This document shows, piece after piece, positions 27,515 to 56,855 of a stretch of DNA of 64,000 nucleotides. The notes beneath the pieces are model-generated. The model was not told the DNA's origin. It was given only the letters and a program-made list of their open reading frames with translations, and did no database searches. This stretch comes from Trebouxia sp. TZW2008 (taxonomy: Eukaryota; Chlorophyta; Trebouxiophyceae; Trebouxiales; Trebouxiaceae): contig BDIU01000143.1 in the NCBI GenBank assembly GCA_002118135.1, positions 402-64,401 of the forward strand. Direction: 5' to 3'. A program made the position numbers and the translations under genes. Position 1 is the first letter of the stretch, and each line of letters starts with the position of its first letter.

Positions 27515-30500
27515 ATGGTGCTCTCGTTTCTGCGAAAGCTTGCGCAGCTTTCGCGAGACCGTTCGCGCTGCTCGGGCCAACATGAGGTACGAATGTCTGC
27601 TGCACAAGGTTGACTTGTTTGCTCCTAGTGCACATTAATGACTCGTCCTCTCCTGAAGACATCAAAGTTTTGCTGTCTGTAGATCGACAACAGACACTCA
27701 AATGTAGCTAGGAGGCACGAGACATCAGTGCGAGATGATTCATCTGCTATCAAGTCCCTCAAGGACAAGGTCAAGGCAGTCAGCCAGGTAGGAGAAAGCA
27801 ATATCCAGCAAAGCTTTGTTGTAAAGTTTACAATTACAGGCCATGTCTCAGAAGCCTTCTTGCTTGATGTCAGTGGTATAGGCAGCATTTGTAAGCTCAG
27901 ATAAGATGGTCATCTTTTGTGCAGAGAATGGTTCCGTACCCAGCGAGACCAAGAGCGCGGACATCAACAGTCACAACAAAGCCCCTGGCTGTCATTACCC
28001 CAGTCATATCTGAAGTACAGGTGCGCTAGCTGGTGCTGTGATGCGCGTATCTGCCACCATGAGACTAGTGCAAAGAGAATTTAGCAGAGGCCACATGAAA
28101 TCTGGCCGCCCTGGCAGTCCAATCTAAAACATTGTGTCCACCAGCTGCATTAGTTTGTTCATCGTCTCCGTCATGGTTTACAAGCTTTCAGCAAAGATAC
28201 GTTTGCAGGAGCACCCAGCTGTTGAAGCTGCAGATGACATTCTGTTCTGGGACGCACCTGACGCTGAAGAGCTGTCTTTGGAGGCTGACGATGGTGTTGT
28301 TGCTGATGTGTACACAGACACTGCGGCTCAGACTGGGCAGCATCTGCCTCAACAGCATGTTGCTATCCACAGCACTTTTCCGCTAATGCTGATGGTCTTT
28401 GTGCTCAGCTGGACATCTTGCATGCTCCAGCTTACAGCATTCCCATGGGTCTGCAAGCTGGCATTGGCGGTGATCAATGTAGCAGCGATGGCAGCAGGGA
28501 TTCAGCTGTATGCACCCTTCATGTGGCTGAAGCTTCTCGCCAATGCTGGTATAGTCTTGAGCGTAGCACACAGACTGCTGACAGTAGCTGGGCTTCTTCT
28601 TGCTAGAACTGTCTGCATTGTTAGACCTGTCACCCACCAGGGGTACTGCTTGGGCGCATCCTGGGTTGTCAAGCAAGCTGTTGAGATACAGCATGGAGCT
28701 AAGGCCATTTTTGGACAGTTTCTGTCACTGCTGCACAACATAGCCAGAGGCATTCAGTGGACTGGTCAGCTCAGAAAGCGCAGCATGAGCGCAGTTGCAG
28801 CCAAAGTGTCCAGATTCACATTACCTAGCTTCAGTATAGCGCCCAGCCTAGCCAGCATCGTAGCAGACTTCTGCGCCCATTCCAGCTGTGTGGCCTTCAC
28901 ATTGTGGGTAGCTACTGCGGCACTGGTCCCAGAGTGGATCTTTGATTACATCCTGAAGCTTTTGCTGCCCTCCTTGGTGGTGGTTGGTGGCGTTACACTT
29001 TACATTGTCCTCCTGAACTGGGCAGATTTGTCAGCCATCAGTGTGCCTTCTTTGGCTCAGCAGGTGAGATCTGCGCTGGTTTGTTGCCACACTGCTTTGT
29101 ACATGACTTGCCTGCTTTTGCCAAAAGGTAGTCCATGCAAGTTCTTCTGCCAAGCGAGTTGTCACAAAGCTGCTGGCGACGCTGCAAATGATGCTCAGGC
29201 TTGAAAACATTTGCACTTGCAGACAGTTTGGCATGCATGCAATGGATTTTGTTCTGACTTGATTTCATCTCACATGCTGCTGCGCATGATCAAAACTTTG
29301 TTGCTGCAGCTGAAGCACTTACACATGCCACAACTTCAGCTTGCACTGGTGTTCATTGTGACTGACAGCTGGCGTCAATTTGCTTTTCTCCTGCACAAAT
29401 TGTTGGAAACTCCGCAATCTGTTTGACCTGTGGCGCCTGACTGCTCTGTAGGTAAAGGACATTGAGCCAGCGCAGGGTGGTGGACCACTTGTGACTGTGA
29501 AGGCTATGTGGGGTCGGTGCCTGCAGCAGGCCAACAGATTCTGGGCGCACCTAAGCCACCACTTCGGCTCCAAAGCTTCTCGCCCGCAGGTCTGACAGCT
29601 TGCCCTGCAGTCTCCTTCTTCTTATCTTCTTGTCGTTCTTCCCTTTGTGCTTCTGTTCTCCTTGTCCCTCTGTCCTCTGGAGTCCTTACCTGCTTTCTTG
29701 CTGCGCTTGTGTCTGCTTGGTCTGGGTGTTGTTGAACTCTGTTTTGACTTCTTGACAACGGCTTGTTGCAGTTGTTTGTCTGTCAGGCTGTTGTATTCCT
29801 GCTCCTCCATCCAGTGATGTTGACTGTGCTGACTCTGAATTTCTGCTTTGCTTGCTGTAGGAGGCTCACAGCAAGATCGACATCCTGCAGCAGGAAATGG
29901 CTTCTCTGAAGAAGCATATGTCAGAGTCAGGCTCCACTGCTGAGAGCCAGATGGTCAAGGTGGAGAAGGAGTTGAGGGATACGAGGCAGCAGATGTCTGC
30001 ATTGCAGCAGAGTATGACTGAGGCTAACACTGCTCACGCCCATGCGCTCCAGGTACATCACCCTGCAGCATCCTGTCATGTACTGGGTGAACGCCAGACA
30101 GAAAAGCTTGACTTTGACCCTTGCATGCTGTTTATGCTGGGCATCATTAGCTGCATCACATTCGACGATCTGCTGAACATTGTATTAAGATTCAATACAG
30201 CCGTCTGCTGCTACATCAGTGTTTGAACGTTACAGCTGTCATGGGGTGTTTTGCCGCACAAGGTCACTCAGCGCTGATGTTTGTACTTGATCACAATGTG
30301 CATTGTGCCTTTCTAGCATTGTTGACTGTATGTGTAGCACTCAGCTGATCATGGTGAGTGCAGGAGCATGTGAGGCAGTGCCAGCTGGAGCACCAGCAGC
30401 TGGCCAATGCAGCTCAGCAGGACAGGGCTGCTGGCCACAGCCAGATTGCTAAGCTGACCAGCAACTTGGAGACCGCTGAGCAGCGAGTTGCTGCCCTGCA

Positions 30501-33500
30501 GCAGAGTCTGACAGATGCCAGCACTGCCCATGCACAGGCATTGCAGGTAATCACATACTGTGTCCTCATCAGGATGTGTTGCTTGAAGAATGGTGTCTGT
30601 GACAGCTGTGAGGAAATATGTTGCCATGCTTGCTCAACGCCAAGCAAATTCACGTAGATCCTCTCACATGCCATGGCATTGAAGTCTTTGAAAGTTGTGT
30701 GCACAGGTGCATGTCCATTGGCCTTTTGCTATCAACAGTGACAGCTGTATCAACACTGATGTACTCCTGTGTCGCCTTGTGCTCTTCCTGCTGTGTTACG
30801 ATGCACATACAGAAACCTTGAGTCATGTGTGCTTAGGAGCATGCCAAGCAGGTCAGTGCAGCACAGCAGGACAGGACCACAGCCCAGAGCCAGATGTCCC
30901 GCCTGGACAGGGACCTGCAGGAGGCAGTGCAGCAAGTAGCTGCCCTGAAGCAGGCCTTGGCAGACAGCGACACTGCCTATGCCGACGCACTGCAGGTAAA
31001 TTCCATTCTTGGATATTATGAGGTGCTCCTTTGTGATGACATACACACATGTTGGGTGCATTCCTATGAGTTGTCGGCATGCTGACATCCTTGTGTATTT
31101 CCTTGACATGACTCAGCTGTATTGTGCATGCTTGCTAGGACAGCCTGATGAATGATGCAGTCTTGTCGCCAATGTCTGAAGGTTAGTGTCAGATCAACAG
31201 CTCAATTCCAACATTGCCTGTAGCATGTCAAGTGATGTCCATCATGTTGATGTACAGGAGCATGGCAGGCAGCAAGAGCTGAAGCAAGAGCACCTGGTCA
31301 TCACAACAGAGCAGGCCAGGGCTGATGCTCAGAGCCAGATGAACCAGCAGCTGCAGGAGGCTCAGCAGCAATTAGCCACCTTGCAGCAGTCCTTGGCAGA
31401 CAGCAACACTGCCCACGCCCAGTCCTTGCAGGTAGCACTGACTGCAGCATATACTTTTGTGCTCAGTAGATGCCTGAGAAAGGTTTGATGATAGTCCAAG
31501 CTTTGTCATTGCAGTTGGCCTGAAGAGGCGCTGGGCATCAGTGCAGGTTGAGTTGTATGATGACACGCAACAGTGCTGCTGTGTTAGATGGAAGTTTGCT
31601 GTTGTGAACAGACTTGCCAAGTACATGTCTCAGCTGGATCATGCACACTCTGCATGATAGAGCCTGATGTGGAGCGCATACTTTGTCACCCAAGTCTGCT
31701 GAATGTCAGCACATGGGACACAACATGCCAGCAGTGCCTCCTGCAAGTTGTTCTCATGTTGACTATGCTATGCAGGAGCATGCAAGGCAAGTGCAGCAGG
31801 AGCACCAGAAGCTGGCGACTGCATCAGAGCATGACAGGGCAGCTGCTCAGACTCAGATCATGAGGTTGACAAGTGACTTGGACGCCGCCAATCAGTGGGT
31901 CGCCACCCTGGAGCAGAGAGTGGCAGACAGTGAAAATGGCCATGCTCACGCATCACAGGTAACATACATCTCAGTTTGCTGTCGGCTTGTGCATTATGGC
32001 TATTTGCATGAACATGTTAGTAAACCAACACTGTTTATTAAATTGTGAACAAACAACATATCCTGTAGTGACTGTGGGCTGTCAAAGAGGCCCTGCTGTC
32101 AAAGGTCAAACAAACTGCAGGGTTGTGGTTGTGTGAAGACCAGGTTGAATTTGCAAAGCAGGATTCCCGTCCGAGGTCAAGGCCAAATCAATAATCAAGG
32201 CATGGGCTGCCACTTGAACGCTGCGCAATCAGGCGTCTAGTAGCTGACTTGTGTTATTTATTTGTTCAGGACAAGGCAAAGGCTGCAGCAGCTGCAGCAC
32301 AGGAGACTGAGAAGGCTGCCAAGAAGATGACCCCACAAAAGACCTTTACTGGCTTGTGCTTGCTGAGCAGGGTGTATAATTGCTTCATGTTATGGCAAAC
32401 TTTCAAACTGATTTAAGACAGTTGTGTGTTCCAGTGCCGCCTAGCTGGGCCTGCTGAGCCTGTCCAGCATGCATGTTTCACGAAATGGAAATGCGCAGGT
32501 ATGCGAGAACAAAGTGGTGGAGAAGGAGGAGGAGGGCATGGCAAAGGAGGAGATGGGCATTGACACAGAGATGCAACGCAACGACACAGAGGTGATGGGC
32601 TATGCTGAGGAGATGATGGGCAATAATGAGGCGGAGAGCACAATAGATGGCAAGGCACAGGAGGGGCAGTTGTTGCTGCCAGTATCATCATCCAGGGACC
32701 AGGCTGCCAAGGTTCGTTCCATCATAATGCAATCTGCAATGCACACAGCCTCTGAATATTGCTGTGCTGCAGGCTACCAAGTCCGTATTCAAAATCTGTC
32801 ATATTGCAATTTGCCGTTGATACAGTCTGTGAATGATGACAGGTTATGCTTTGCTCAAATCTTCATCATGAAGTTAGATGCCACTCAGCTTGCCATATGG
32901 CATTGGACTTCAGCGCACGTTTCCTGCGAAAAAGTACCTCTCATGAACATGGTGCGCAGTCACATGATCAGTTTGTGGCAAAACAGAGATGACTTGTATC
33001 ATGGCTTCCAGGTGCCTGCTGCAACAAGATGCTCAATGCACTGTATACTCACATGACAATCTGCCTGGACGTGCTTCACTGCCAGCTGCCTGCCATAATT
33101 TTACACATGCACAATGCAGGTGGCAGGATGACCAATGTTCTGTGATAATCTATACACAGAGCAAAGTGCACTTGTCCTGACAATAGTGCACTTATCAAAG
33201 GACTGAAACCGTTTGACCTGCAAATGCAGACCCAGCTGAAGTCTGGAGGCGCTGACTCCTGGTCAGCGCTGAGCAGACCTGAGACCAGACCTAGGGCTGA
33301 CAACTTGCTGCTGGAGCATGATGAGCGCATTGGGGCATTCCCACAGGGCAGAGGGCTCCTTCAGATCAGGGATGTCACCATATACCCTGGCTGGGAAGGC
33401 AGCCTGTTGGCTGGTCAGCATGAAGAGGTGAGATGATCGCTCCTGACCCTTTACCTGAGACTATTACACACAAATTTATGCAACGTGACACTTTGTATGC

Positions 33501-36500
33501 TGCGTAAGACAGGCAAAACACGGTACTGTGACAGCAAGTTTGCATGCAGGCTGTAAATTACTGGTTACTGTTGTTGCCATTCACTCTGCCATGAGGCATC
33601 GTTCTACATTGCAATCATCATAGCTTTGCTGATGCTTCAGGATGAGAAGAGCGAGGTGCTGCCTGCTGGACCATCCAGAGTATCTTCAGCGCTGCTCAGC
33701 CTTGCAGACTTCCCGCAGCCCCGGTCTCCAACAGCTGCTGAAGCCGCACTGCAGGATATCATTGGCATGGAGTCGCTGCCTGACCTGCCTGAAGAGCAGC
33801 CAGCTGGTAGCAATGCAGTTGGGAGCGACAGTGGTGCTGAGAGCATTGCTGCGGTTCAAGCAGCACCTGAGGTGAGGCCTTGTGGCATGTGCATGATGTT
33901 GCCAATATGCGTCTGCAAGCTGTTGCAGCTGCATCGTGAGGCTGCAGTTGTGTGTGCTTGCTTCAAACGAACAAGCACATAGGCATAAGACTTTGTATCA
34001 CCGCTGGAAAGTAACAGTTTGTGAAGCCAACTTTAGTTGTTACCATGGTTTCCAGAGACATGATCCTTTTGGTGGAGGCATGTTCAGCATATGCTGGCAA
34101 TGTTGTGAAGCAACAAATGCTATACAGGCATCAAGGCCCAGAAGCATGATTGTGCTGCCCTTTCTGAAAATCTGGCTGTCCTCTACATTGCTTGCAACAG
34201 TGCCAGTGCCACTAACATATGCATGCTCTGCAGGCGGGGGACGCTTGGTTGGATGATTTTGACGAGGACCTGGCTGCTGTGATTCGGGATGCTCGGGCTC
34301 CCAGTGCAGAGATGTGCACCACCACAGACTCTCAGCAAAAGGGACAGGAGGTAAATAGACCTGTCTCTTTTCAGATGCAGACCATGATCTGTCTGCTTGA
34401 CTGGCTATCGGCTTGGGTCTGCAAGAACGGTTCATGTATTTTTTTGTACACACCCAATCCCTAGGACATTGCACCCAAAAGACCACCTGCCATGATGCCT
34501 TAGAATGTGGTCATTGTTTTGGCAAGGAATTTGATCATTCTTTGCCATGTTTGCAAAGCCAGAAGTTTGTGTCTTGTGATTGGCATTGCTCAGCGTGTTG
34601 CTTGCTGTCATTGTGATGGTCAGTCTTTGCTGGGCAAGCAGCACACCACATCAGTAGGTGTGTTTCATCATCGTGTCCATGCAAATTTGTGCCAGCTGCC
34701 AAGGACTAAGAAGTAAGTGACCCCAGACTTGTGCTTCAGCTCTTGTCTGCAGTGCTGTTGCTAATACCATGCACCACGTTGCACACTGTGCAATACAGTA
34801 GTCACTTGTTCATGCTGGGCATCATGTTGTGCATTGATGGCCTTGACTCTGGGCATAGTTGCTACTGATGTAAGCCTCCCTGTTGGCTCCCTGGCATGGC
34901 GTTGATGTGAAGCTGACCAATTCAAAGTAGCCTCAAGCTAATCAGTATAGTGATGTCAAGCTGAGGACGAAACATTGATGTCAAGCTCACCCTGTGCGTT
35001 GGTCTATGACATGGCATGGCATGCCACTCATATGCGTAAATCGTGTTGGTGCTGTGCAGTGCCAGCTTCAGAAGCAAATACGGCCGCGCATGACACTGCT
35101 TGCTCACTGCAGCTCCAGCTGACAAGCTTTGCTGATGCCACTTCAGCTGTGCATCCCTCGTCTTGATTGCGCACATGCTCTGCAGGTAGAAGCAACAGAG
35201 AGGAATACTGGCACCTTTGATGTGGTTGGGGACGTTCTTGTTGACAGATGCCGCCCTGCCCTTCAGCAGTATGAGATTGAGGCACAGGTACCACCCACTT
35301 GCCAGTGACTCCATGTTAACCCAATTTGCATTGTGTTGCTTCGGCGATGCTGGGTTGTTCTCTGCACGTGCTGCAAGTTTCACTTCACAAGGCAGCAACT
35401 GTGCCTTGCCGCATGAGAAATGCGTTATACAACACTTGGAAATTTGATTCTGCTGCTGCAGGACGCCTTTGCCTACTTTGTCAAGAAGACCCAGATGAAC
35501 ATTGCACAGGACAGCCCAATGCCAATGGAAACCTGGGAGGTATGTTTTGCTTGCTTTGACAAAGCCCAGTATGACTTTCCTCATAGAGAGTCCAGCATGT
35601 CAGCCAACTCTCACCAGGTCACTGAGCGCGCATATGTTTTGATTCTGCAATGACTGAGCCTGCCCATACTTGACAATGCATGGCATGTGACCTGCAGCAC
35701 GACATGCACTAACAGGCATGTCCATCAACAAAATTGCTGTGGTATTGACTTGACTTGGATTGCAATGCAGTTGGCATCTGAGGACTACGAAGTTCAGGCG
35801 TACAAGCACGTGCAAAAGTACAGTGGCCAGCACAAGACTGATTCCTGGCTCTGGGTGCAAGCACCTTTTCACTCAGCAGTCCGGGTTCTGAAAGCAGTGG
35901 ATCGGGTCCCTGACTTGGGTCTGCTGGGTCAGGGCGTTGGCGCCAAAGTGTACTAGTGAGTTGGTATTGAAATACACTCTCTTTATGAAGAAGCATGCCT
36001 TGTTGCCTTTCTGCAATGTATTATGACGCTTCAGCACAACTTGGCTGGTAGACTCATATGTGCTGGAGCAGAAGTCCTGTTTAGGGCACAAAGTACAAGC
36101 TGCTGCAGTAGCCACTGCTATGAGAACCTGTCTATGCAAGTATCCCCTGTCAATTGAAGCTTGACAGTGGCTCTGAAGCTGCAAGACTAAGGAAACTGCT
36201 CCTGCCGCTGCTGCTATCGCTGCTGCTGATGCTGCTGTGAGCCAGCCATGAGTGAAGCCTGACAAAGTTTCAGAATGTGCAGTGGTAAGCAAGCTTTTGC
36301 TGCTGCAGTTGTGAGGTAGCCATGAGGGATGGAGGGGTTTTTGCAGCTGCCTTGAAGGACATATGCTATGACTCAGCAACGGAGCAGCTCAGAGCCAATG
36401 CTGAACTGGCAGCTCTGCGAGATGCTGAGGGCTGCCAGCTCTTGGGACAGTGTCTTGGTGTGATCACCTACCAAGACGCAAGGGACAACAAGCAGCACCT

Positions 36501-38243
36501 GGCCATGCTGCTAGAGTAAGTCTCCTGACATTGTTGACAGAACATGGCTTTATGCGCCATGCATGGATATGAATGCTGATGGTTCCTTAACCATGCTGAA
36601 TTTGTGAGTCAAGGGAAGCGCTTTGCATACTGCATCAGGCTTGATATTTTGTGCAAAGTGCGTTGGCCGCTACACTGCGTGAGCATTCAAGTGATGATTC
36701 AAGTGTTGTCAATCTTTACCACAGGGTAGGCTTGCTGGCATTTGTGTGGTGTTGAAAACTGACAGAGGCCATGTGTACAACAGGTATGCAGAAGGCCTGT
36801 CATTGAGTGATGCGAAGAAACAGCTGTATGAGGAGGCTCAACAGCAACCAGACTTTCTTGCAGCCTACATCCCGGCCATCCGCAGCCTCATGGCATATTT
36901 GGTAGAGGTGAGAGAGGATCATGGATTTGGCTTCAATGCAATGACAGTTTCCATCATAGGGCAGTGTGTGCATCATGTCAACAGAAGCCAGAATAAACTC
37001 GCAATTTTACAGGCCTAGCTACGTGCGTGCATGCAATAGCTGACATGCTTGCGTCTGCTCATCCCAGTATCAGCCTTCAATCAGCCCAGGCGCTTTGTAT
37101 CATTCTTGCGATCGAAGATTTAACAAGCTTCGTAAAAGTTATGCTTGTCAGAAGTATCATCTGTTGCCAGGCGACATAGGCATTGCATGTTGTCAAAGCA
37201 TTTGCTGCTTGTAACATACAATGCTCATGTTTGCCATGTGGATGCGTCGACGCAGGCAGCGGCATGGTTCCATGCACAGGGGAGGGCGCATTGCGACATC
37301 AAGGTTTGCAATGTGAGGATCAAGCTCAGCCCCAACCAAGATGCCACAATTGTTGGGCTTAAGCTGATTGACTTTGGAGGCAGCGTGAAGCACAGTGGTA
37401 AATGTGCTTGAGTTGCGCACCTGCATGGCAAATGTATTGCACAGCAAGCAATGAAGAGCGGCATGCCTTGTTGTCTTGCATCTTGCACGCATGACTGGAG
37501 GCAGCATACCAGTCTTGGGGCAAGGTTCATTCTGCAAGTACTGACTGGCATGCACCTCCTGTCAGAGCATTTGTGCAGAACAGGCATGAAAGGGGTTTGT
37601 TTTACAGGCCTGATCTCAAAGGTGCCCAAGAATTTTACCTTCACCTATTTCGCCGCATCCCCAGCCATTGTCCGAGCAGCTGCGGATGGTGTTGATGAGC
37701 ATATTGATGCTTGTGCTCTGGATGTATGGAGTCTTGGCAGTCTGCTCGTTGAGCTTTTTGCTTGTGTGTCACCCTGGGCGGGCCCAGCATCAGCAAACCT
37801 TGCTGAGCTGAAGCTTGCCCATGAAAAATGGGTAAGTCTGTCAATCTCTTGTTGTCAATAGCTTGGATGTCTGCAACATCCTCTGCATGTTTGCAGAACT
37901 TTTGCTCACCAGACCGAGTGTGCGCTTCTGGTTCAACATCATTTATGTTGCATAAGCCTGTTAGGAAAGAAGAGCCGATTTGTCAGAACATGGGTCTAGT
38001 CAATGCTGTAAGGGTCTGCTGTGTCTGCAGGCTGATGAATACACTGCAGATGACAAATGCCTACGTCAGCAGCATTTTATTATTGCAGCACTTGACAGTG
38101 GGTCATCAGCAGATGAGACTGGACAGCTGTTTCAGCTAGCGTGCTCGATGTTGCATCCCCAAGATGAATTCAGGGCAACACTGGACGAGGTTGTACAGTC
38201 AGGATTTTTTGATCCTGTCCAGCAAATGCCGAGTAGCATGTGA
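27515..38243 (+). CDS. K1: multipass membrane, coiled-coil-module, non-RD protein kinase
   Basis: Twenty-three exons, assembled by GT-AG sites and homology to K2, give 1430 aa with every junction in phase: 27515-27586, 27683-27787, 27925-28020, 28209-29063, 29452-29589, 29861-30052, 30364-30546, 30837-30995, 31258-31431, 31776-31958, 32270-32371, 32499-32711, 33230-33427, 33641-33871, 34234-34350, 35186-35287, 35462-35539, 35771-35955, 36309-36515, 36784-36907, 37256-37397, 37608-37831, 38031-38243. Order: basic start (MVLSFLRKLAQL), membrane region (~148-365), coiled coil (423-719), acidic linker, kinase (~1115-1425). Kinase landmarks: GQGVGAKV loop, Lys1144, HCD 1250-1252, Asn1257, DFG 1277-1279, DVWSLG. 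Likely membrane-bound and oligomeric; substrate unknown. Exons 11 and 14-16 are the least certain. Confidence 0.8.
28209..29063 (+). other. K1 exon 4: acidic segment and membrane domain
   Basis: This single 285-codon exon (residues 92-376) opens with an acidic stretch (DILFWDAPDAEEL) and YTDTAAQTGQH, both kept in K2. It then holds hydrophobic spans at about 148-170, 178-200 and 205-232 and a C-terminal pair around VPEWIFDYILKLLLPS. It contains one copy of the AAGIQLYAPFMWLKLLAN unit that is nearly triplicated in K2. Four to six membrane passes are plausible. An even number would put the coil and kinase on the same side as the N-terminus. Confidence 0.75.
29598..29712 (+). other. Pyrimidine-rich tract in K1 intron 5
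   Basis: The coding strand of the intron after exon 5 carries a long C/T-rich run (CTCCTTCTTCTTATCTTCTT and more). The same intron of K2 has one at 49000-49090. The antisense strand consequently shows Lys/Glu/Arg-rich open frames, which I do not count as genes. Confidence 0.7.
29861..31958 (+). other. K1 coiled-coil exon array (five modules)
   Basis: Exons 6-10 encode 64, 61, 53, 58 and 61 residues. Four start with EH-(V/A/G)-(R/K)-Q and all end with (A/S)-x-x-L/S-Q exactly at the donor. Each begins and ends in phase 0, so a module can be added or removed without breaking the frame. Heptad spacing and Q/A/E/R content predict continuous coiled coil, suited to oligomerisation. Confidence 0.85.
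35771..38243 (+). other. K1 kinase domain
   Basis: Six exons with intron phases 2, 2, 0, 1, 0 encode a full kinase fold. It has a glycine loop (LGLLGQGVGAKVY), a beta-3 Lys in AAALKDI, an alpha-C Glu in ANAELAALRD, a hinge (LAMLLE), and the catalytic loop AHCDIKVCN with Cys in place of the usual Arg. It also has LIDFGG, an activation segment ending AASPA rather than APE, and ALDVWSLGSLL. All residues needed for phosphotransfer are present. Loss of the HRD Arg marks a non-RD kinase, usually not regulated by activation-loop phosphorylation. Confidence 0.85.
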
Positions 38244-39033
38244 AAACCCTAGCTTGTTTGCTGCTGTGTTGACAAGCACCCAGATTTACTGAAGTGTATG
38301 TCCCGTAGTTGGCCTGATGGCAAGGTGTGCATTTATGTTGCAGCCATGAGGCATCAGCAACGCTGCAGTTTTGCACTCTGCAATACCCGTTTCAGCCTGG
38401 AAAAATACTGTGTGACACAGCTGCTCAAGTTTTGCTGATTACAGTGCCCAACCTGCTGATTGATACTTGTTATCGTTCGCAACGTTTCAGACTCAGTGAC
38501 TATTTTCTCCATTGCAATGGCTGTAGTATCAGTCCCAGACCAGAGCAGTTGCACAAGCTTGCCGCATGACCTTATAATTATGACAAGACAGTAACATGGA
38601 TTTGCAAACGGCCACTCAATTGAGCTGCAACTCATGCGCGGAGCTGGCTGCCAGGATGAGACACTGTGACAGGGTCAGACTCTGTGCACGGCCCGCTGGA
38701 GACTGTGCATGTTGCTCAAGATGTCAGCTCACTAAGTCCGACCCTGACAGAAACCATGCTTGGACGCATCCCAGCACGGGTACCGGTGGTTGGACACGTG
38801 GCAGCACGTTCAGCCAAGCACGTGCATGCCATTTATGCATGGACCAAGTTCGTGACGCTTCCGGAGCGACGTGACGCTCGCAGAACGTGCTGTTACTGCA
38901 TTGTCATCAAGCCGTACAGCAGTACAAGCCTGCGAGTCCTTAATTCCGTTCAGAGACAGCCGCATAGCGCTCTTCCCTTGCTTGTCCACACTGGTCTGAT
39001 TGCGGCTGGAGGTGGCATCTAAGGGCTTGCAGC

Positions 39034-45962: not shown

Positions 45963-46535
45963 CCAGTACAGCTGCATCTGTATGGTGCTTGTTCCTTACT
46001 GCTCCAGCTAACCCTCAGGAGCATGTCAACAGGTGCTTTCTCTGTAGTGTGCTCTTGTCATAGCAATATATGTGACCTTGGGTAAGATATAATTCAGGGT
46101 CATGCAGGCCTGCCAATCACCATATTTTGCTATATCTCAATGATGTGCTGGTCTCATGGTAGGCAAGGCTTTGACAGATACATCAGGACTTGCCAAGGGG
46201 ATGAGCATAGCGAAAAGTGATAATGCTGGATTTGAGCAGCAGGGACAGTCTGCGTCTTCCAGAGTTTGGTGCGATACAGGTGCTCTGGTATGTGGGCATG
46301 CATGCATCATGTCACAGTGTCATGCGCATGACATGCTGATGCTTGATATGGTCCTGAAGCTGTACTGTTCCGGAGGCAGCAGCCTGACGGGGTGCGTGTA
46401 GTCCTTCATACTGCGCGACCAGCGTTGCAAAGTCCTATTTGACTGGCAGATCGGAAAGGAGCAAGGCTGATGTGACTAAACGCTGGACACTAAATTACGG
46501 ATTACGAACTTTCCCGTTAGAGAGAGAGAGAATAA

Positions 46536-46580
46536 TTCAACAAAAGCCCGTTGACCCGTTGCTGAACGGGTCGACAGTGA
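46536..46580 (+). promoter_or_regulatory. K2 promoter box with near-perfect palindrome
   Basis: GTTGACCCGTT (46550-46560), a 4-base spacer GCTG and AACGGGTCGAC (46565-46575) form a palindrome with one mismatch. It is preceded by a (GA)-rich run and AATAATTCAACAAAAGCC, and lies 166-196 bp before the ATG at 46746. The block aligns with 27315-27362 at K1. A dimeric transcription-factor site is the simplest reading. Confidence 0.6.
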
Positions 46581-46745
46581 GTACGCAGCAACAACGCTGG
46601 TGTTCGCAGTCACCCTCTGGCAGCTTCGGATTCTTTGCGCACCACGCGATCTTTGCATCGCCGGATGGTCTTATCGCGGAGTCCTGCTGCCTTTAGCCTC
46701 AACCCTGCACCTCAATAGTCCATTGCGCAAGCTGCTTGCTTCAGC

Positions 46746-49700
46746 ATGGTGCGATCGGGGTTTCGTAAGCTTGCGGGGTTATTCCCAAAGCGGTCCTGGT
46801 CGTCAGCTGTATCTGTGGTACGAACGCCTGCTGCAGAAGTCTAACATACATATAGCTTTGCATCTTCACTTGCAACATCTCTTGACCTTCAGCCTTGAAA
46901 TTCAGTGGTGCTGCGTTCAGGCAGATGACAGATCCCCAAGAGATAGCAATGGCAAATCAGCACGTGAGGTGTCAGCACAAGCTGCTTTGTCTGCCACCAA
47001 GGTTTTCAAAGCCAAGGCCAAGTCAGCATGCAGGGTAGGTGAAAACACGTGCTTGTCAATACTTCTTGCAAAGCTTGTTTCCTGACTTTCAAGGGCTGTG
47101 CAGAAACTGGCTTTCAAATCAACACGGCAGAGTGCACAGCCAGCAGAAGCAAGCGAGCCTGCTGCTGCCACTGCTCCAGCCCCAGTCAAAGTACAGGTAC
47201 GCAACTTCTTCAGCGCTGTGTGGCCCTGCTGGATGGGGATTTGCACTAAAGCATTGCAGTAGAAACGGTGTGCCATCTGCAGCTTCTACTACCATGCATC
47301 CCCAGCATGCTCACTAGCTTCTTTGTCAAACACCCCTTGTGTACCTAACGCATTTCAAAGATTACCAAGCTTACAAAGGAGCCCTGCGTTTGCAGGAGCA
47401 GCAACATGTCGAAGCTTCACAGGCTTCAGACAACAATGCGTTCTGGGATGCACCTGATGCTGACGAGGTGGTCGTTCTGGAGGCTGACCAGACTGATGCT
47501 GAGGTCTACACAGATGCCACAGCTCAGACCGAGCAGCATCTGCTTGACTACTCTTTCAGCGTCCAAAGCCCTCATCTGCTGCTCCTGCTGGCCATTCTGC
47601 TCAGCTGGGCATTGTACATAGTCACCTTCACATCTGTTTCTTGGAAACTGAAGTCTTCATCGATGCTGCTCAGTGTGACAGTCATGGCAGCAGGCGTTCA
47701 GCTGTACGCACCTGTCACATGGCTTAAGCTTCTAGCTAACACAGACATAGTCATCAACGCTGCACTCAAGACGCTGACAGCAATATGCCTTGGTGTGGCA
47801 GCCATCTCAGCAGGGGTTCAGCTGTATGCCCCCCTCGTGTGGATGATGCTTCTAGCTACAGCAGACATAGTCATCAATGCTGCGCTCAAGACGCTGACAG
47901 CAATACGTCTTGGTGCGGCAGCCATAGCAGCAGGTGTTCAGTTGAATGCACATGCTTTGTGGCTCAAGCTTCTAGACACCTTTGCTCAAGCCATTGCTTC
48001 TCCTCCTAAGCTCCTGGCATTACCTGACCACTTCTTCAGGAAATCCGCTAAATTCGTTGGCACCACCACCTGCCAGAGATACTGCTGGGCAGCAGAGCGG
48101 GTTGTGAAGCACAGTTCTCAGACCTGGCACGGTGGGAAAACAGCATTTGACCAGATTTGCGCATGGATAGCACATGCCATAAACAGAGCTGCTCAGTGGA
48201 ATGGTCAGCGCATCCTGCAAGGCATCAGCACAATCTCAGCTGTTTTGTCAGTACTTAAACAGACTTTCCTCAGTACAGCGCCCAGCGTAGCCGGCAGCAT
48301 GAGAGATGTCTACACTCAGTCCAGCTGTGTTGCCTTGGCGCTGTGGGTGATTGCTGGGATACTGGTCCCTGAGTGGGTTTATGATTACATCCTGAAGCTT
48401 TTGCTGCCCTCAGTGGTAGCAGTCAGCGGCATGGTACTTTACGTGTTCCTCAGCTGGACAGCTGTTCCCGCTCTTAGTGCGTCTGCTTCACCTCAAACGG
48501 TAAGATCTGCGCCATCTTGCTGCACCAAGCAAACTGTGAGCACAAACCTGACACATCAACAGCTGCAAACCTTACTGTAGTGATGATTAACGCAGACAAG
48601 GCAATAACTGTTGTCTTGAATTGAATGGCCGTCTATTGTCTGTTTTTTGTGCTGCTTGCTGCTTAACACTTATCTGCTGCTGCTTCAACACTATGCACTA
48701 AAAAGAATGAGCTTGTACTGACATTTGCTGTGATAGATAGCTAGCGTCCATTTGCTTTTCTGCTGAAAGATGTGCTTGCTGAAACCCGGCATGTGCAGCT
48801 GGTGAGACTTGTCTGATGTGCAGGTGACAGATATCAAGATGTGTCAGCCTCGTGTTGGGCTGCTGGTTAGTGTGAAAACTGTGTGGAGTTGGTGGCGCCA
48901 GCATGTCAAAAGGTTCTGGGCACGCTTGGCTTCTCAATATGGCTCCAGAGCTTCCAAGCTGCAGGTTTGTTGGCTTGTATTACATACTCCTATTTTGTGT
49001 CCTGCTTCTCCTTCTTCATCCTTTGGGTCTTCTTCCTCTTTTCCTTCCTCTTTTGGTCTTTCCGCCCTGTGCCTCCTTGCCCCTTCTGCTTTACAGTCCA
49101 GTCTGTCCAGGGCTGTGGAACGACCACCTTAGCCTGAAATTGCATACCTGGACCACCACTCCAAAACTCTGCCAATACTCCTTTGGCCTTGCAATGTTGA
49201 CATCATCAGCATGGGTCATCAGCATCAGTCATCAGCATGAGTCATCAGCATGAGTCATCAGCATGGGTCATCAGCATGGGTCATCAGCATGGGTTATCAG
49301 CATCGGTTTACAACCTCTCAACCCAGTGCAATCTGTTTGAGCAGAGATGATTGAGCTTACAGCATTCAGTTTGGAGTGGCTTGAGGTGTATGCACATCTG
49401 GCTGCACAATCGAATGTGCTGCTTTCTCTAGCATTGCTTACATCTGCGTTTGCATGAAGCATGTCACAACTCCGTTGCTCCTGCAGACACTCACTACTGT
49501 CATTTATGCTTCACTGGACTTCCTGTTTGCTTGCTGAAGGGGATTTGCAACAGGATTCATCCACAACGGGATTGGCATCCTGCAGCACGAAATGGCTACT
49601 CTTGTGCTCTGATAAACACTTATTGCTGTTATCTCTATGCCGCTGACTTTCCCCTTGGCTTGCTGAAGGGAGCTCACAACAGGATTGACATCCTGCGGCA

Positions 49701-52700
49701 GGAAATGACCGCTCTGAAGGAGCACATGATGGAGTCAGGTTCCATTGCTGAGAGTCAGATGGCCAGGGTGGAGAAGGAGTTGAGGGATGCCAGGCAGCAG
49801 CTGGCTGCCTTGCGGCAGAATCAGGCAGAAGCCACCGCCTCCCATGATCAGGCGCTTCAGGTACTGCACACGGTATGCTGTTTTGTGTGCACTCATGCAG
49901 GTTGCTTCAGTGTAACACCAATCAGCACATCACTATAGCACTTTTGGTCTGCCTGTATGCACACAATTAAGAGTGTTGTATCAATTGTACTGAGCTATTG
50001 TATGCTACCCTCAGTCTCACATGATGTTCTTCAGATGTTGCAACATGAGCATCCAGAAAACACAGTTGTCTGTGATTCCATTTCACTGTCATGCCGGCAA
50101 TTTGTGTAGCGCATGATCAGTCATGTCACTCTGTGTAAGCACTTTTGCCGCTACATGCATAGCGCTGAGCCAATAATGGTGCATGCACAGTCAGATCTCC
50201 TAACAGTTATCTGTGATACCAGCTTACTATTGTGACAGCAATACATGTGTTGCATCACCAGTCACATTGCTCTCTGCAAGCATTGTCTGCTATATTCGTC
50301 GTGCTTAGCTGATGATGGTGCATGCAGGAGCATGTGAGGCAGCGCCAGCTGGAGCACCAGCAGCTTGTCACCGCAGCAGAGCAGGACAAGGCTGCGGCTC
50401 AGCGGCAGATCTCAACAATGACCAGCGACTTGGACACCGCTAAGCAGCACGTTGCTACCCTGGAGCAGAGTTTGGCAGATGCCAACACCGCCCATGCGCA
50501 GGCATTGCAGGTAGGCACAGATCATATCGTGGGTAGCATGTGCTACGTCACAGTGATGTTCAAACTAAATCTGTGGCTTCATGCAATGCCAGTCAATTTG
50601 TATGCTGCCAAATGCAGATCCACTTTGATTCTGTGGCAGCAAAGCAGTTGCTGTAAGCAGTAATGAAGTTTTGCATGCACTGCTTGTCAAGCAAGCAATC
50701 TGTGTTATGCTCAGTGCTTATCCTGCACCCATTGGCACACAAACTTCTGTGTGTTGTCTACACAGAAGCACACCAATTGACTTCTGGTCAAAAATGCTAT
50801 ATCTGTCAATTTTGCTGCAATTGAGTGCATTCCTGTACTGCCTCATTCATTGCCTGTTGTGTACTGCCTCATTCATTGCCTGTTGTGCTCAAGTCCCCAT
50901 ACAGAAGCTTTGAGTGTGTCACTTGCAGGAGCATGCCAAGCAGCATGAGCTGGAGCATAGCAAGCTGGCTGCAGCAGCAGAGCAGGATAGGGCTGCTGCT
51001 GAGAGCCAGATGGCCCGCCTGGACAGCATTCTAACGGAGGCCAGGCAGGAGGTAGCTGCCCTGAAGCAGGCTCTCGTAGACAAGGACACCGCCCAGGCCC
51101 AAACCTTGCAGGTAATTTGAGGCATATTGTCAAGCCTTGGATCATACATTATATCATGACATCATTCTGTGGTGGGCTTATTGCATCTGCCCTGAAGATT
51201 TACTGAAGCTGCAGTGCAGTTTCAGCCATAAGATTACCTGCATTCGTGCCGCATATGATCTACTAAATGATTGGCATTGTGAACAGACCTCTCAATTAAA
51301 CACTGCTTACAGCTGACTGCATCATGCACACTTGCCGTTCTAGGGTTTGGTGGAGGATGCATGCTACAACCTGAATGTCGAAAGCATCAGCCAATATGCA
51401 GTGACGACGTCGCCTGCAATCTCAAGTAATGTGCTGATCAGACCATGGTATGCACAGGAGCATGTAAGGCAGCTGCAGCTGGAGCAGCAGAAGCTGGCAT
51501 CTGCAGCAGAGCAGGACAGGGCCGCCGCTCAGAGCCAGGTGAACCGCACCCATCGCGACATGCAGGAGGTCAGGCAGCAGGTAGCCGCCTTGCAGCAGGC
51601 TCTGGCAGACGGCAACAATGCCGCTGCTCTTGCATCACAGGTAAAATCCACTGCCATCTGCTTTTGGCTATGAGTTGAGTGTGTCCTGAATTGACCAAGC
51701 ACTACAAGAGGCTTTGCAGATAGTAATTCTTGTGGAGCGTGCCATGCATAAATCACAATGGCAAGGACCAGCTGACTTGCGACTGCTTGTTTCTCCTGAT
51801 TTCTCACCAACCTTCTAACCTTTTGGACAAAGTTGTGTTGCACTGTGCCTGATAGCAATGTATGTGCATGCATTGCTTGTGTACAGATATCTTGACCAGT
51901 TGATTGCTCCTAGTTGTACCTAGCTGGGCCCCTGAGCCTGCTTAGCATGCGTTTTTTATGAGTGAATGAATGGATGGATGGATGAATGGGTGAGTGAGTG
52001 AGTGAGGGAGTGAGTGAGTGAAGGAATGCCTGAAGCAATGCATGTATGAATGCATGCATGAATGAATGAATGCATTAACGCATGAATGAATGAGACCTTT
52101 CAGCCTTGTTTTGGGGTGCAGGCAAGCAAGGACAACGTGGTTGGAAAGCAGGATTTGGAAAAGGAGGAGATGGGCAGTGATCAGGCGGAGGATGGCATGG
52201 CAAAGGAGAAGAAGGGCAACGTTGAGGGTGTGATGGGCAGTGCTGAGGGTGTGATGGGCAGTGAGGAGGAGGTGCAAGGCATTGCTGAGGCGGTGCAGGC
52301 GACACATGGCCAGGCAAAGGTAAAGCAGTTGTTGATGTCTGTAGCATCACATGCATGATCAAATGCAGAAGCACTTGACTTGACATCAGTGCACCATACT
52401 ATCATACAATTCTGCCATGCAGCAGGGTTGAGGCGCTGTATTCTAAGTATCAGCTGCAGCAAGATGCTTGCGGAACTGTCAACTTATTTGCTGTCTACAG
52501 TTCCCGCAACTTCAGCTTGTAGCAAGCACTGGACCACTGCACATCTGGAATGCAACTGGCAGGCCAATCAATTGTGTCCTGTTGTCTTGTATTCGTAATG
52601 ACCCAAGTTGGTGGTCCATGGCTTTGATACTTGATCTGTGTCAACAAGCTGACATGCTGACACCTGTTGCTGTATGTTCAGGGTCAGCAACTGAAGATTG

Positions 52701-55700
52701 AAGCCGCTGTGACTCTTCCTGAGGCCATGGACTCCATGTCTGGATTTCCTGACCGCATAGGGGGTTTTCGTCAGGGCAGAAGGCCTTTGCAGGTTGGGGC
52801 AGTTGAGGTCAACCCTGGCAAGGGTGTCGCCCTTTTGGCTGGTCAGCATGATGAGGTGGGTCACCCTTTGTTTGCTCGCCAGGAGGCTGCGTCACTTCAA
52901 ACTTGAATTTGTAAGCAATGGCATTACTTCTCATGTAACACTGTGTGAGTCATACATATTATGTCAGTATCACTGTGCAGGTCATACATATTAGTGGTGT
53001 AGAAGGTATCTGCATGTCTGAGCAGGACATCATCTGTTGCAAATATCTCAGTGAGCGTTGTTGATGCTGCATCTATCTTTCCATGGTACACAAGAGGACC
53101 CAGAGAGCGTGTCATTGGCAACACATCCAATCCTTGCATTTTACTTCACTATCAGAGAATTGATATTGCCTTGTCTGTCCATCATTGCTGCTTGTCTGTT
53201 CTGCAGCCTGTTTCGCACCCAATTTTTTGCAGTCCTCTTGAGTAACAGGGTGTTAAGGGTGATGCTTGGCTTCATTGTTCATGACTGGTATTGTCCTGCT
53301 CTGCAGGCTGTTTTGGCACTCAGTCCTAGAGACAGTCCCACACCTGGGGCCATTGGGAACAAGCCCTTTGACAGCAGCAGCCTTGTCAAGGAGCCATACA
53401 TGATTGAGGGCGAGGTCAGAACATTCCTCTTGTCACAGCAGCTTGTGCTTTGTTGATGTCAGTATGGGTACCAGACAGGTACCATAAACTTGTCTTGTAG
53501 CCATGCTTTTGAGTGCTTGCCTGAGGTCCTGGGGTAGTGTACAGCTCCCCCTGCATCATGTCAAAGCCCTGAGAGCCTCAACACGTCAGTGATAGTCCAT
53601 GCTTGCTTTCAGCGCTGGCATTTAGCAGTTGGCAGTCACCCAGTTAAGATGCAACATATATAGCTTCATGTACAGACCAGACCAGACCTCAAAACACAAT
53701 GATGTTTGGCGTTTGCATAATCCTGTTGTTGGTGCCATGTTGCAGACATTACCACATCAGGGGAGACTTTGAGTCAAACCCCTGAGAGCCTTCTGACAAC
53801 AATGCTTGTGCCCCTGCAGGCTGCCTATCAGTACTTCAAGAGCAAGGCCCAGAGGACAATTCTCAACAAAGCAGTTCCGCTGCGTACCGCAAAGGTATGC
53901 TTTGCTCAACATTTCACCAGCATTCACGCTTGCACAGCTTCCCAATGTCAGGCAAACATGATTCAACAGCTTGTGGTTGCATTCTTCTGACATGTCGGTG
54001 ACACGTGTGTTATGGCTGCTCAGCCTGCAATGTGTTGATGCCCAACTGCTCTTTTTTCCAAAGCATGCAGTCCATCTCTGTGCTGAATGTTCCTGTCTTG
54101 AGCCAATGTCAAGAGATGGCTAGAGCTGAAGCTGCTTATGCGCGTGTATGCCTACCTGTGCTCAAGCATGCAAGACATCAACCCCGTCAAGAAACAAACA
54201 GTGTTTGGTGCTGCAGGTTGTGTCAGAGGACTTTGAGGCCCAGTTGCGCAGTCGTGTAGCAAAGCATACTGGCAATGAGCAGTCAGACTGCTGGGAATGG
54301 CAGCATGAGCCGTTCTGTTCTGCAGTCCGCTCTCTGAAGGCAGTTGCTGGTGTACCCAATCTTGGCTTCCTAGGCAAGGGGGCTACTGCTGAAGTACACT
54401 AGTAAGTCGCTGCCTTCTGATCTAATTAGCCGCATTGCCTGCCTAGCTAGTGCTGAAGTCACCGTCTATGACTGGTGCTGTCAGTGGAAGAGTGGCCTTG
54501 CTGCTACAATACACTGAGATTCAGGCATTGTACGTGTTTGATTCTGTTGGTTAGCCCCCAGGCTTCTCACTTTGCCTCTGTCTCACTTTGCCTCTGTCAA
54601 CAGCCTGCTCCAGGGTTTATTTCTGCTGCAGCGTTGACAGTAAGTGCATGATTGTTGGTTGCTCCAGGGTCTGTGTCCTCACCAGCATACAAGCATTTTG
54701 CCATTTTGATGCGCCAGCCTGCAGCCAGGCACCCAGAGCAGCGCTGATGCTTTGCTTGACCTCTCCCTTGCTCTGGCTGTTCTCATGCTTTCTGCGTATG
54801 GTCTGCTGATGAAGCACCCTCCTGTCAGAAAGTCAAGCATTTAGTACCAATTGGCACACCAAGTTGAAACTGACAAAAGCCTATGGCTCGCTTTGCTGCA
54901 GTGCTGAGGTGGCAATGGAGGACGGGACAATTCGTCCAGCTGCAGTGAAAATGGTGCCTTATAACACTTCATTTCAGCAGCTGTTAGCCAATGCTGAGCT
55001 GGCAGCACTGAGGGATGCTGAAGGCTGCCCCTGTTTGGGACAGTGTTATGGAGTATTCCCTTTGCGCAGCCCGTCAAACCTTGAGCACCTGGTCATACTG
55101 CTAGAGTAAGTCTTTCTGCCTCAGCTTGCATGCACTGCTGTTTTGTGCACGCAGGCACTACATGAGCACAGACATATGCGCACCAAAAGTCATCTTGACT
55201 GCAAAGGGTCTGCTGCCATAAAGTGTAGGGGAGTCAATCTGATGCATCAACAGTCAAGTTACAATGACTTCTTTTTGCAACTATTGCTTTTGTCATTCCT
55301 TACTGAGAGGCGTCATTGCAGTCAAAAACAGAGATTGTTTCCAAATTGCATGGTCCTTACATTAACAATGTCCTTGTATGAAGTCTCCTTACCAGGAAGA
55401 ATTGCTGGAGCTGACGTTTGTCTGAGTGTGACTGTGACCGCAGGTATGCAGAGGGCTTGTCGTTGGTGGCTGCAAGGAAAGAGCTGGTTGCTCAAGCTGG
55501 CAAACAGCCAAAGCCTGCAAGAGCATTTGCAGCAGCAATGCAGCAGATTGCTGTGCACCTATGTCAAGTGAGCAGCATGCTTAGCATATGCTTTATGATG
55601 TCATCTACTTTGTAACAAAACGCTTCTCAGCTGCACTGATGGCATGCTGATGATGCTATATCTCAAGAATGCCATTGTGAACGTGTCACATGCTTGCGTG

Positions 55701-56855
55701 TCCACCCTCAAGTTGTTCGTTTCCTGTTTCTGGCTGCATTCTGCTATGTACCAGGAACAGAGCAGAGCAAAAAGTATTTCTTGATGTCAGCATGTCATGT
55801 GTGCTTTGCAAAGGCGTATGTTGGCATCAATTCCAACATGTTTGCTGCAGGCTGCAGCTCACATGCATCAACAAAGCCGAGCCCATTGTGACATGAAACC
55901 TGACAATATCCGGGTTCAAGTGGGTAAGGGGGGATGCGCTGTGACGCAAGTGAAGCTGATTGACTTTGGCAGCAGCGTGAAGCATTGTGGTGAGTTGTCA
56001 TCTCTTGTCTGAATATGCATGCTCTGCATTGTAGGAGGACAATCTGCTTGCTGTGATGGCTGCTGACAGCAGGTACCTAAGCTCTACCAAGTATGCTTGA
56101 TTTGCTGTGCTTTGCATTGAAGTCTGCTGCTGGAAGTCGTGTACCTGGAGTTGCCTGCGTCCATAGATATGCTGAGCAATGGGTACTTTCTGCAGGGCCA
56201 ATTGAAGGTGTTCCATGCAACTTTGGGTGTACTCTGGAATATGCATGCCCTACAGTTGTGAAAGCCAGCATTGGTAGCAAGGACGAGCACCTCGATGCAT
56301 GTGCTTCAGACGTCTGGAGCATTGGTTCAATGGTCATGTTTCTTTTTGCCAAGCTGAGGCCATGGACAATACCAAAACCCAAGCAGTACGACTTTGCAGC
56401 ATACAAGAGTCTGCATGACGCCTGGGTAAGTTTGTTCAAAGCCCTTGCACATGATGCAAACTTTGACAGTTGCTTTCCAAGCTGACCTGCACATGCTGTC
56501 AAAGCGCTTATCATTGTGTAGTGCACATTGCTACCAACATTTTGTTAGCATTTCAAAGCTGCAAGATCATCTTTGAGTGACTGTCCAGCTGTACATCTTG
56601 CAAATAGCTTGACCTATCGATCTTGACAGGGACTTGCTCTGCTTGCAGGAACAAGCGCTCTTGGCAGATGCTGATAGCGACATTCGTCGACAGCATCCTG
56701 TCATGAAAGCATTGACAAAATTCAATTACACAGCCAACCCGCAAGTGCTGTCTAAGCTGGCAATGCAGATGTTGCACACAAATGCAGCAGCCAGACCAAA
56801 GATAGCTGACATTGTTAAATTGCTTGAGGACACACCTGAACAGCTGATGCTGTGA
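46746..56855 (+). CDS. K2: multipass membrane, coiled-coil-module, non-RD protein kinase (paralogue of K1)
   Basis: Nineteen exons, all in phase, give 1302 aa: 46746-46817, 46921-47034, 47104-47196, 47396-48499, 48824-48964, 49669-49860, 50328-50510, 50929-51111, 51458-51640, 52122-52319, 52682-52855, 53307-53414, 53820-53894, 54217-54401, 54902-55105, 55444-55567, 55851-55989, 56196-56425, 56649-56855. Start MVRSGFRKLAGLF parallels K1. Membrane region ~145-455, coiled coil 509-755 (four modules), acidic linker with VEGVMGSAEGVMGSEEEV, kinase ~989-1295: LGFLGKGATAEVH, Lys1018 in AAVKMV, HCD 1123-1125, Asn1130, DFG 1149-1151, LEYACPT at the APE site, SDVWSIG, AARPKIADIV. The kinase is closer to consensus than K1. 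It lacks counterparts of K1 exons 10, 11, 14 and 15. Confidence 0.85.
47396..48499 (+). other. K2 exon 4: enlarged membrane domain
   Basis: A 368-codon exon (residues 94-461) aligns end to end with K1 exon 4 (YTDATAQTEQH, VPEWVYDYILKLLLPS). It is 83 codons longer, mostly because of the 120-bp tandem repeat. The added units are themselves hydrophobic, so K2 probably has more membrane-associated segments than K1. Confidence 0.8.
47682..47980 (+). repeat. 120-bp in-frame tandem repeat inside K2 membrane exon
   Basis: Units start at 47682, 47802 and 47922 (the last about half length) with a period of exactly 120 bp, or 40 codons. Each unit encodes AAGVQLYAP-x-x-W-x-x-LLA and then the INAALKTLTAIRLG stretch. 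Neighbouring units differ by scattered substitutions only. K1 has a single unit. Confidence 0.92.
49000..49090 (+). other. Pyrimidine-rich tract in K2 intron 5
   Basis: A C/T run (CTTCTCCTTCTTCATCC and onward) lies in the same intron as the K1 tract at 29598-29712, although the rest of the intron has diverged. A mirror-type H-DNA structure or a splicing enhancer is possible. Confidence 0.65.
49203..49306. repeat. 13-bp minisatellite (TCATCAGCATGGG), eight units
   Basis: Eight consecutive 13-bp units show only GGG/CAG/GAG/CGG variation at the end and one T for C. It lies in K2 intron 5 and is absent from K1. Confidence 0.93.
49490..49616 (+). pseudogene. Aborted duplicate of K2 coiled-coil exon 6 start
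   Basis: A ~127-bp segment just upstream of exon 6 repeats the end of intron 5 (GCTTGCTGAAGG) and the first ~60 bp of the exon (CAACAGGATT, GGCATCCTGCAGCACGAAAT). It then leads into CTCTGATAA, which closes the frame. The acceptor is kept but there is no donor. It shows duplication activity at the edge of the coil array. Confidence 0.75.
49669..51640 (+). other. K2 coiled-coil exon array (four modules)
   Basis: Exons of 192, 183, 183 and 183 bp encode 64, 61, 61 and 61 residues. Each ends in L/S-Q at the donor and all are phase 0. Modules 2-4 start EHVRQ/EHAKQ. Recurrent landmarks in each are EQDRAAAQSQ-like and QVAALxQALAD-like segments about 30 residues apart. Confidence 0.88.
51958..52094. 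repeat. GAGT/GAAT tetranucleotide tract
   Basis: A degenerate run of GAGT, GAAT and GGAT tetramers spans ~135 bp in the K2 intron before the acidic-linker exon at 52122. It is absent from the matching K1 intron. Confidence 0.85.
54217..56855 (+). other. K2 kinase domain
   Basis: Six exons have intron phases 2, 2, 0, 1, 0, identical to K1. The catalytic loop AHCDMKPDN is a classical active loop apart from Cys for Arg. DFG is intact. The APE motif reads ACPT, so the Glu that pairs with the late Arg (in AARPKI) is lost although the Arg remains. The segment before the glycine loop (WEWQHEPFCSAVRSLKAVAG) is shared with K1 and may be a family-specific extension. Confidence 0.88.

Follow-up and report, generated by a model that had tools for sequence, protein, structure and literature searches.

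The window analyzed here is a stretch of 64,000 nucleotides from the green alga Trebouxia sp. TZW2008 (contig BDIU01000143.1, positions 402 to 64,401 of the forward strand). It contains two genes, gene 1 and gene 2 (Table 1), each modeled as a multipass membrane exon, a set of exon-encoded helix modules, and a C-terminal protein kinase domain. The exon chains were assembled by hand from the raw sequence by choosing GT-AG borders, and were then re-translated. The models comprise 23 exons (4293 nucleotides, 1430 amino acids (aa)) in gene 1 and 19 exons (3909 nucleotides, 1302 aa) in gene 2. In both chains the introns are GT-AG and the final codon is the sole stop. The order of elements is the same in both genes: three short exons, the membrane exon 4, an exon of 46/47 aa, the helix modules, the linker, and six kinase exons. 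In both genes the phases of the kinase introns, five in number, are 2,2,0,1,0, and all remaining introns are in phase 0. The rebuilt chains confirm the claim of an earlier, sequence-only reading that the window holds two in-phase models with common exon order, intron phases, and domain order.

Table 1. Positions of the features of gene 1 and gene 2 (TM, transmembrane; KD19, hydropathy).
Feature	Position	Strand	Detail and basis
Gene 1: N-terminal exons, multipass exon, helix modules, linker, kinase	27515..38243	+	hand-built chain; spliced alignment
Gene 2: same order as gene 1	46746..56855	+	hand-built chain; spliced alignment
Stretch upstream of gene 1	27316..27422	+	matches 46536-46641 at 77%; DNA comparison
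Stretch upstream of gene 2	46536..46641	+	matches 27316-27422; DNA comparison
FFAT-like core FWDAPD, gene 1	28245..28262	+	residues 104-109, acidic stretch free of lysine and arginine before TM1; pattern search
FFAT-like core FWDAPD, gene 2	47441..47458	+	residues 109-114; pattern search
Multipass membrane exon, gene 1	28209..29063	+	285 aa; KD19: five hydrophobic segments at >= 1.6, six at >= 1.2
Multipass membrane exon, gene 2	47396..48499	+	368 aa; KD19: five segments at >= 1.6, eight at >= 1.2
Tandem repeat in membrane exon, gene 2	47673..47951	+	120 bp (40 aa), 2.3 copies; aligns to a gap in gene 1
Helix modules, gene 1	29861..31958	+	five phase-0 exons of 64, 61, 53, 58, 61 aa; hand chain, composition
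Helix modules, gene 2	49669..51640	+	four phase-0 exons of 64, 61, 61, 61 aa; hand chain, composition
Linker exons, gene 1	32270..35539	+	poorly conserved, least certain; hand chain, spliced alignment, shuffles
Linker exons, gene 2	52122..53894	+	hand chain, spliced alignment, shuffles
Kinase, gene 1	35771..38243	+	six exons; PF00069 4.1e-21
Kinase, gene 2	54217..56855	+	six exons; PF00069 2.2e-22
Catalytic loop, gene 1	37289..37312	+	HCDIKVCN (non-RD); chain, kinase alignment
Catalytic loop, gene 2	55884..55907	+	HCDMKPDN (non-RD); chain, kinase alignment

Gene 1 and gene 2 share ancestry. Eighteen exon pairs were assigned between them, leaving five unpaired exons in gene 1 (31258-31431, 32270-32371, 33641-33871, 34234-34350, and 35186-35287) and one in gene 2 (53307-53414). 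Compared with shuffled sequence (200 shuffles each), the pairs have z = 2.9 to 29.8. Exon 3 is lowest, followed in ascending order by exon 2, one linker exon, exon 1, a second linker exon, and the last exon. The proteins align by blastp with 43% identity between residues 1-654 of gene 1 and 1-751 of gene 2, and with 34% identity between residues 512-1416 and 498-1291. Over 1158 aligned codons, the differences at codon positions 1, 2, and 3 are 0.37, 0.31, and 0.45, respectively, in the order expected of protein-coding DNA.

A spliced aligner of our own was given only one protein and the DNA of the other gene. Queried with the gene-1 protein, it reproduced 11 of the 19 hand-placed exons of gene 2 exactly; queried with the gene-2 protein, it did so for 12 of the 23 exons of gene 1. 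The agreement includes five of the six kinase exons in each direction and 3/4 and 3/5 of the modules. The disagreements are edge misses at some first and last exons, a fragmented or shifted membrane exon, and one skipped gene-1 module; for most linker exons the aligner chose exons different from those of the hand chain. The kinase exons and the helix modules are the firmest parts of the models, and the linker is the least certain.

The membrane region lies entirely within exon 4 in both genes, and these exons are 44% identical (z = 29.8). The helix modules contain no proline in 297 aa (gene 1) and 247 aa (gene 2) and are rich in alanine and glutamine. In gene 1 their hydrophobic period has its highest peak at 3.6, and we infer that they form a long amphipathic helix. 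The first two modules are closest to their same-position counterparts in the other gene (64% and 69%). Third-position differences are 0.23-0.34 in four module pairs and 0.42-0.66 in six kinase exon pairs; because of the lower values, the modules look younger than the kinase exons or homogenized between the copies. Three gene-2 modules used as query against the assembly gave eight matches, all in gene 1 and gene 2. The gene-2 helix has a sub-threshold Pfam match to End3 (16.5 bits, cut-off 25.2). Directly before the intact first helix-module exon of gene 2, positions 49540-49610 resemble by eye a relic-like partial duplicate of this exon.

The duplication reaches the 5' flank, since the stretches upstream of the two genes match each other. 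A decayed copy of the last kinase-gene exon is situated just beyond the window end (C139:64587-64772), and the small gene next downstream of gene 2 has a second copy, 57761-57970 matching 65160-65369 in window-extended coordinates. The decayed kinase end and the second small-gene copy make up a third unit of the array, which is broken. Another pair of kinase loci, C86a and C86b, are neighbors on one strand of the contig C86. The common upstream DNA, the decayed downstream copy, and this second pair support the tandem expansion claimed previously.

The kinase domain and its relatives

The kinase is the only domain above the cut-off in a Pfam scan of gene 1 and gene 2, with PF00069 scores of 76 and 80.1 bits, respectively, against a curated cut-off of 31.7. 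The two kinases were aligned with four from other loci of the genome, named after their contigs (C86a, C86b, C293, and C186). All six agree at the positions of the glycine loop, the lysine, the glutamate, the HxD aspartate, the lysine of the catalytic loop, and D-x-G, the roles of these residues being presumed from position. The tripeptide ending in the catalytic aspartate is HCD in gene 1, gene 2, C86a, C86b, and C293 and HND in C186; further loci have VCD (C305), IVD (C155), HSD (C208), and HRD (C275).

The kinase profile matched 1228 sequences of the PDB. The best matches are MELK (56 bits), MSK1, MNK2, and MLCK4, and lower among the best 60 are RSK, DAPK, CLK4, AAK1, and MAP3K2. The matches are mostly of the CAMK type, and kinases such as MELK, MSK1, and MLCK4 are the closest by sequence to the window kinase domain, at a large distance. 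We know of no multipass membrane part in these CAMK-group kinases.

Only distant relatives were observed in a database of 5.8 billion proteins that includes plant entries of NCBI and UniRef (about 8000 candidates scored per search). The complete gene-2 protein had no match there, the presence of close algal relatives in this database not being shown. The six-kinase profile found five proteins (E-values of 1.2e-6 to 9.7e-4, 24-29% identity), three of which contain the NAF domain of CIPK-like kinases, and a query of five kinase-plus-membrane rows found one protein (3.1e-3, 22% identity). Within this coverage, the lack of a close database relative agrees with the earlier claim of an undescribed family.

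Kinase loci and upstream membrane frames in the genome

The assembly contains 68.5 Mb in 527 contigs. Searches with gene 2 and a C293 sequence as queries identified, as a lower bound, at least 13 places besides the two window genes: the fragment beyond the window, two on C86, and one each on C293, C186, C194, C275, C180, C305, C155, C62, C208, and C192. The matches to C194, C275, C180, C62, C208, and C192 are weak (2e-4 to 4e-3), and among these only C275 was placed in the tree.

Upstream DNA was inspected at 12 kinase loci, including the window genes and leaving out C194 and C192. At six of them (gene 1, gene 2, C86a, C86b, C293, and C275) an open reading frame (ORF) of at least 280 aa with multiple TM segments lies on the same strand about 2.6-6.7 kb upstream; that of C275 extends to the edge of the fetched stretch. 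Among 15 ORFs of at least 280 aa in 200,644 bases, six have at least three hydrophobic windows, and all six are upstream of kinase exons on the same strand; as these bases were chosen as kinase-bearing stretches, 6/15 is not a genome-wide rate. The membrane-plus-kinase layout is wider than one tandem pair and includes at least six loci, with two pairs in tandem; the exon chain from membrane ORF to kinase was completed for gene 1 and gene 2.

The membrane exons of C86a, C86b, and C293 are mutually similar (8e-10 and 5e-8 from C86a). Profiles of two and three rows showed no similarity between the window membrane exons and the C86/C293 ones (hhalign probability 0.2), and we do not claim a common origin of these membrane parts. 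The membrane exons of the window and of C293 matched no family in the Pfam scan, which covered C86a as well, with a DC_STAMP match below the cut-off (0.097), and did not extend to C86b. Coil-like exons between the membrane ORF and the kinase were sought in a rough scan: C86a and C86b have none above the threshold, and C293 has four weak ones. By eye, the membrane ORFs of C86b and C275 also seem to hold short tandem repeats, so that growth by repeats may be recurrent in the membrane part.

Eight kinases (gene 1, gene 2, C86a, C86b, C293, C186, C305, and C155) form a clade with support 100/99 against an outgroup of two own and four public kinases, and 99/98 with C275 added; C305 and C155 cover under half of the tree columns. 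Four of the six own kinases tried as outgroup (L002, L003, L005, and L006) were dropped, having no usable frame. The HRD kinase C275, whose locus has the same layout, lies on a long branch outside the HCD clade. The membrane trait requires two changes on the trees. Numbers as low were observed in 172 of 500 shuffles, and in 158 of 500 with C275 added; because so many shuffles give as few changes, the trait may have had either a single origin or repeated origins.

Proposed working and alternative explanations

Multipass kinases with a C-terminal kinase domain are known from other protists. In the available part of a study of Trypanosoma brucei membrane kinases, 7/10 are multipass, 9/10 have the kinase at the C-terminus, and 9/10 are 929-1678 aa long; the kinases have a long N-terminal part, and the multipass topology is termed extremely uncommon for eukaryotic protein kinases (PMC8519429). 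Gene 1 and gene 2 are similar in having several predicted TM segments, a long N-terminal part, and a C-terminal kinase, that is, the two or more TM segments (by hydropathy) and the domain order of such kinases. Compared by description, the trypanosome kinases differ from the window genes in their Kelch, cyclase, and FHA accessory domains, and the word 'coiled' does not occur in the available part of that text (PMC8519429). The oomycete TKL kinases described in the accessible part of PMC3019232 also form lineage-specific groups with one to nine TM segments and a receptor-like layout. Again by description, they belong to the TKL group, often with a signal peptide and some with a leucine-rich repeat ectodomain (PMC3019232), whereas the window kinases have mostly CAMK-type PDB matches. 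Thus, of the architecture previously called unrecognized, the multipass part with a C-terminal kinase has precedents, and the exon-modular helix between the two looks like the unusual part of the combination. In the accessible parts of one open-access library, the literature on such kinases and on kinase expansion in such algae contains no description of this architecture.

Building on the open chains, the catalytic residues of the kinases, the hydrophobic segments, the helix modules, and the recurrent upstream multi-TM ORF, we infer a single transcript per gene, with topology, oligomerization, VAP binding, and regulation as follows. Each gene would encode one membrane-anchored, self-associating, divergent Ser/Thr kinase, perhaps held at the endoplasmic reticulum (ER) by an FFAT-like motif; we consider this explanation about evenly balanced between right and wrong. 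A short N-terminus and the acidic FWDAPD segment would precede a helical, polytopic domain anchoring the protein in a membrane. An amphipathic helix of about 250-300 residues, composed of exon-sized units, would then bring copies together, and the divergent C-terminal Ser/Thr kinase would be on the cytosolic side. Membrane anchoring and the long helix suggest activation by clustering. Because the catalytic loop is non-RD, classical phosphorylation of the activation loop would be a less likely means of control than the clustering of copies along the helix or the action of a membrane-domain partner.

The FFAT-like motif may bind the VAP/MSP protein of the alga and bring the kinase to the ER or to an ER contact site. 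The stretch around FWDAPD before TM1 contains 13-14 acidic and no basic residues in both genes; in gene 2, few acidic residues are immediately before the core. The pattern F[FWY]DA.[DE], picked after the motif had been seen, occurred in 39/20000 shuffles of gene 1 and 23/20000 of gene 2, and it is absent from the membrane ORFs of C86a, C86b, and C293. The genome contains MSP-domain matches of 95 bits and 30.8 bits (over the cut-off) and one below the cut-off. As given in the accessible part of the source, the FFAT consensus is EFFDA-E in an acidic tract and binds VAP on the ER, and sub-optimal residues are tolerated for strong targeting if five or six of the seven elements are optimal (PMC3261905).

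Several observations weigh against the proposed membrane-anchored, self-associating kinase. The TM counts were obtained with a hydropathy window that flagged a kinase helix too, and structure prediction of the membrane exon gave no confident model (mean pLDDT, the predicted local distance difference test, of 44 for gene 2 alone and 40 for gene 1 with a two-row alignment). The hydrophobic period of the gene-2 modules has its highest peak at 5.1, with 3.6 second, and in both genes the heptad value of 3.5 is outside the five highest peaks (grid 0.05). Of the exon-encoded coiled-coil modules proposed by the sequence-only reading, the phase-0 helix exons were retained, and a classical heptad coiled coil is unsupported by the period. 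Position 1 of the FFAT-like core is L or A rather than E. A later loop of the membrane region is basic, with basic residues at 10/73 positions in gene 1 and 11/82 in gene 2. Given this loop and the stretch around the motif that lacks such residues, the positive-inside rule would place FWDAPD outside, in conflict with a cytosolic FFAT. Six of the 12 loci (C186, C305, C155, C180, C208, and C62) have no membrane ORF in about 4-10 kb of upstream DNA, the C180 check being restricted to ORFs of at least 280 aa.

The kinases of these six loci, which lack a membrane ORF in the fetched flank, would also fit an arrangement of two co-duplicated genes per copy, one for a membrane-plus-helix protein and one for a separate soluble kinase. 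The linker exons, least conserved and mostly placed differently by the spliced aligner, point the same way, and genes here can be separated by less than 1 kb, as between the end of gene 1 at 38243 and the start of its neighbor, read by eye at about 39035. We nevertheless regard this arrangement as quite improbable, as both chains are open in phase 0 with GT-AG borders through the junction of the membrane/helix part with the kinase, two pairs of linker exons close to the modules can be aligned (z = 4.9 and 10.6), and the order and strand of multi-TM ORF and kinase are constant at six loci. A scan for the poly(A) signal UGUAA was uninformative, the next UGUAA being more than 1.4 kb after each stop and several occurring within introns. 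Loss of kinase activity, with the phosphotransfer fold kept only for binding in a structural scaffold, is an unlikely explanation too: the K, E, HxD, N, and DxG residues usually needed for catalysis are retained in gene 1 and gene 2. It would agree with the divergent APE region, the weak resemblance to known kinases (34.7 bits for the best PDB match of the gene-2 kinase), and the glutamine that replaces the catalytic-loop asparagine in C186.

The sequence-only reading had linked the genes to plant pattern-recognition receptor kinases. Such a receptor would be a ligand-sensing membrane protein with a non-RD signaling kinase of the RLK/Pelle family. Plant non-RD receptor kinases combine a non-RD HCD loop with membrane anchoring, as do the window genes; the HCD loop recurs in C86a, C86b, and C293, and PF07714 matches five of the six aligned kinases (best 1.8e-10). 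However, PF00069 matches all six (best 9.1e-25) and outscores PF07714 in gene 1 (4e-22 vs. 0.0016). No RLK/Pelle/IRAK name occurs among the best 60 of the 1228 PDB matches, a sampling of PDB entries only, or among a further 53 listed, one of them without a molecule name. The residue before the catalytic aspartate varies among loci, and HLD is present in MLCK4 and twitchin, which are among the closest PDB matches. Instead of a single TM segment with a ligand-binding ectodomain, the window genes have five or more hydrophobic segments and only the kinase above the Pfam cut-off. RLK/Pelle membership was rejected on the PDB and Pfam rankings only, and the receptor explanation appears highly improbable. 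The link is unsupported, the PDB matches being mostly of the CAMK type and the HxD residue varying among loci.

A broader scenario, which we consider rather doubtful, is a lineage-specific class of membrane kinases. Here, kinase domains would have been fused, perhaps more than once, to rapidly evolving polytopic membrane exons with in-frame growth and shrinkage of repeats. In one branch, the protein would also have acquired a helical rod made of exon modules, which would govern the size of the oligomer or its reach at an ER contact site. If so, the class would have a signaling input unlike that of single-TM receptor kinases. If the alga belongs with the lichen algae, the genes with the membrane-plus-kinase layout are candidates for environment or partner sensing, and similarity-based annotation would describe them only as 'protein kinase'. 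According to the accessible parts of two studies, kinase families are among the expanded ones in lichen algae (PMC6652019) and show strain-specific gains and losses (PMC11523091).

Surroundings of the two genes

Between gene 1 and gene 2, a gene at about 39035-43170, read by eye as multi-exon, has no DNA match to either; a weak match of its last exons to Apolipoprotein (0.001) is below the cut-off. On the minus strand, positions 870-2192 contain an open frame of 440 aa, part of which resembles a glycine zipper by eye; it has no match above a Pfam cut-off, the S4 match being below it (0.0079). An ORF at 18229-19380 has BAH (4.6e-10) and PHD (4.3e-6) domains. The GC content of the window is 46-52% per 2 kb. 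A tandem duplication of 153 bp with 98% identity is located at 59655-59960. Finally, 6768-7139 and 20178-20520 match each other in inverted orientation, with 97-99.6% identity over 164-272 bp, and perhaps represent a recent pair of mobile elements.

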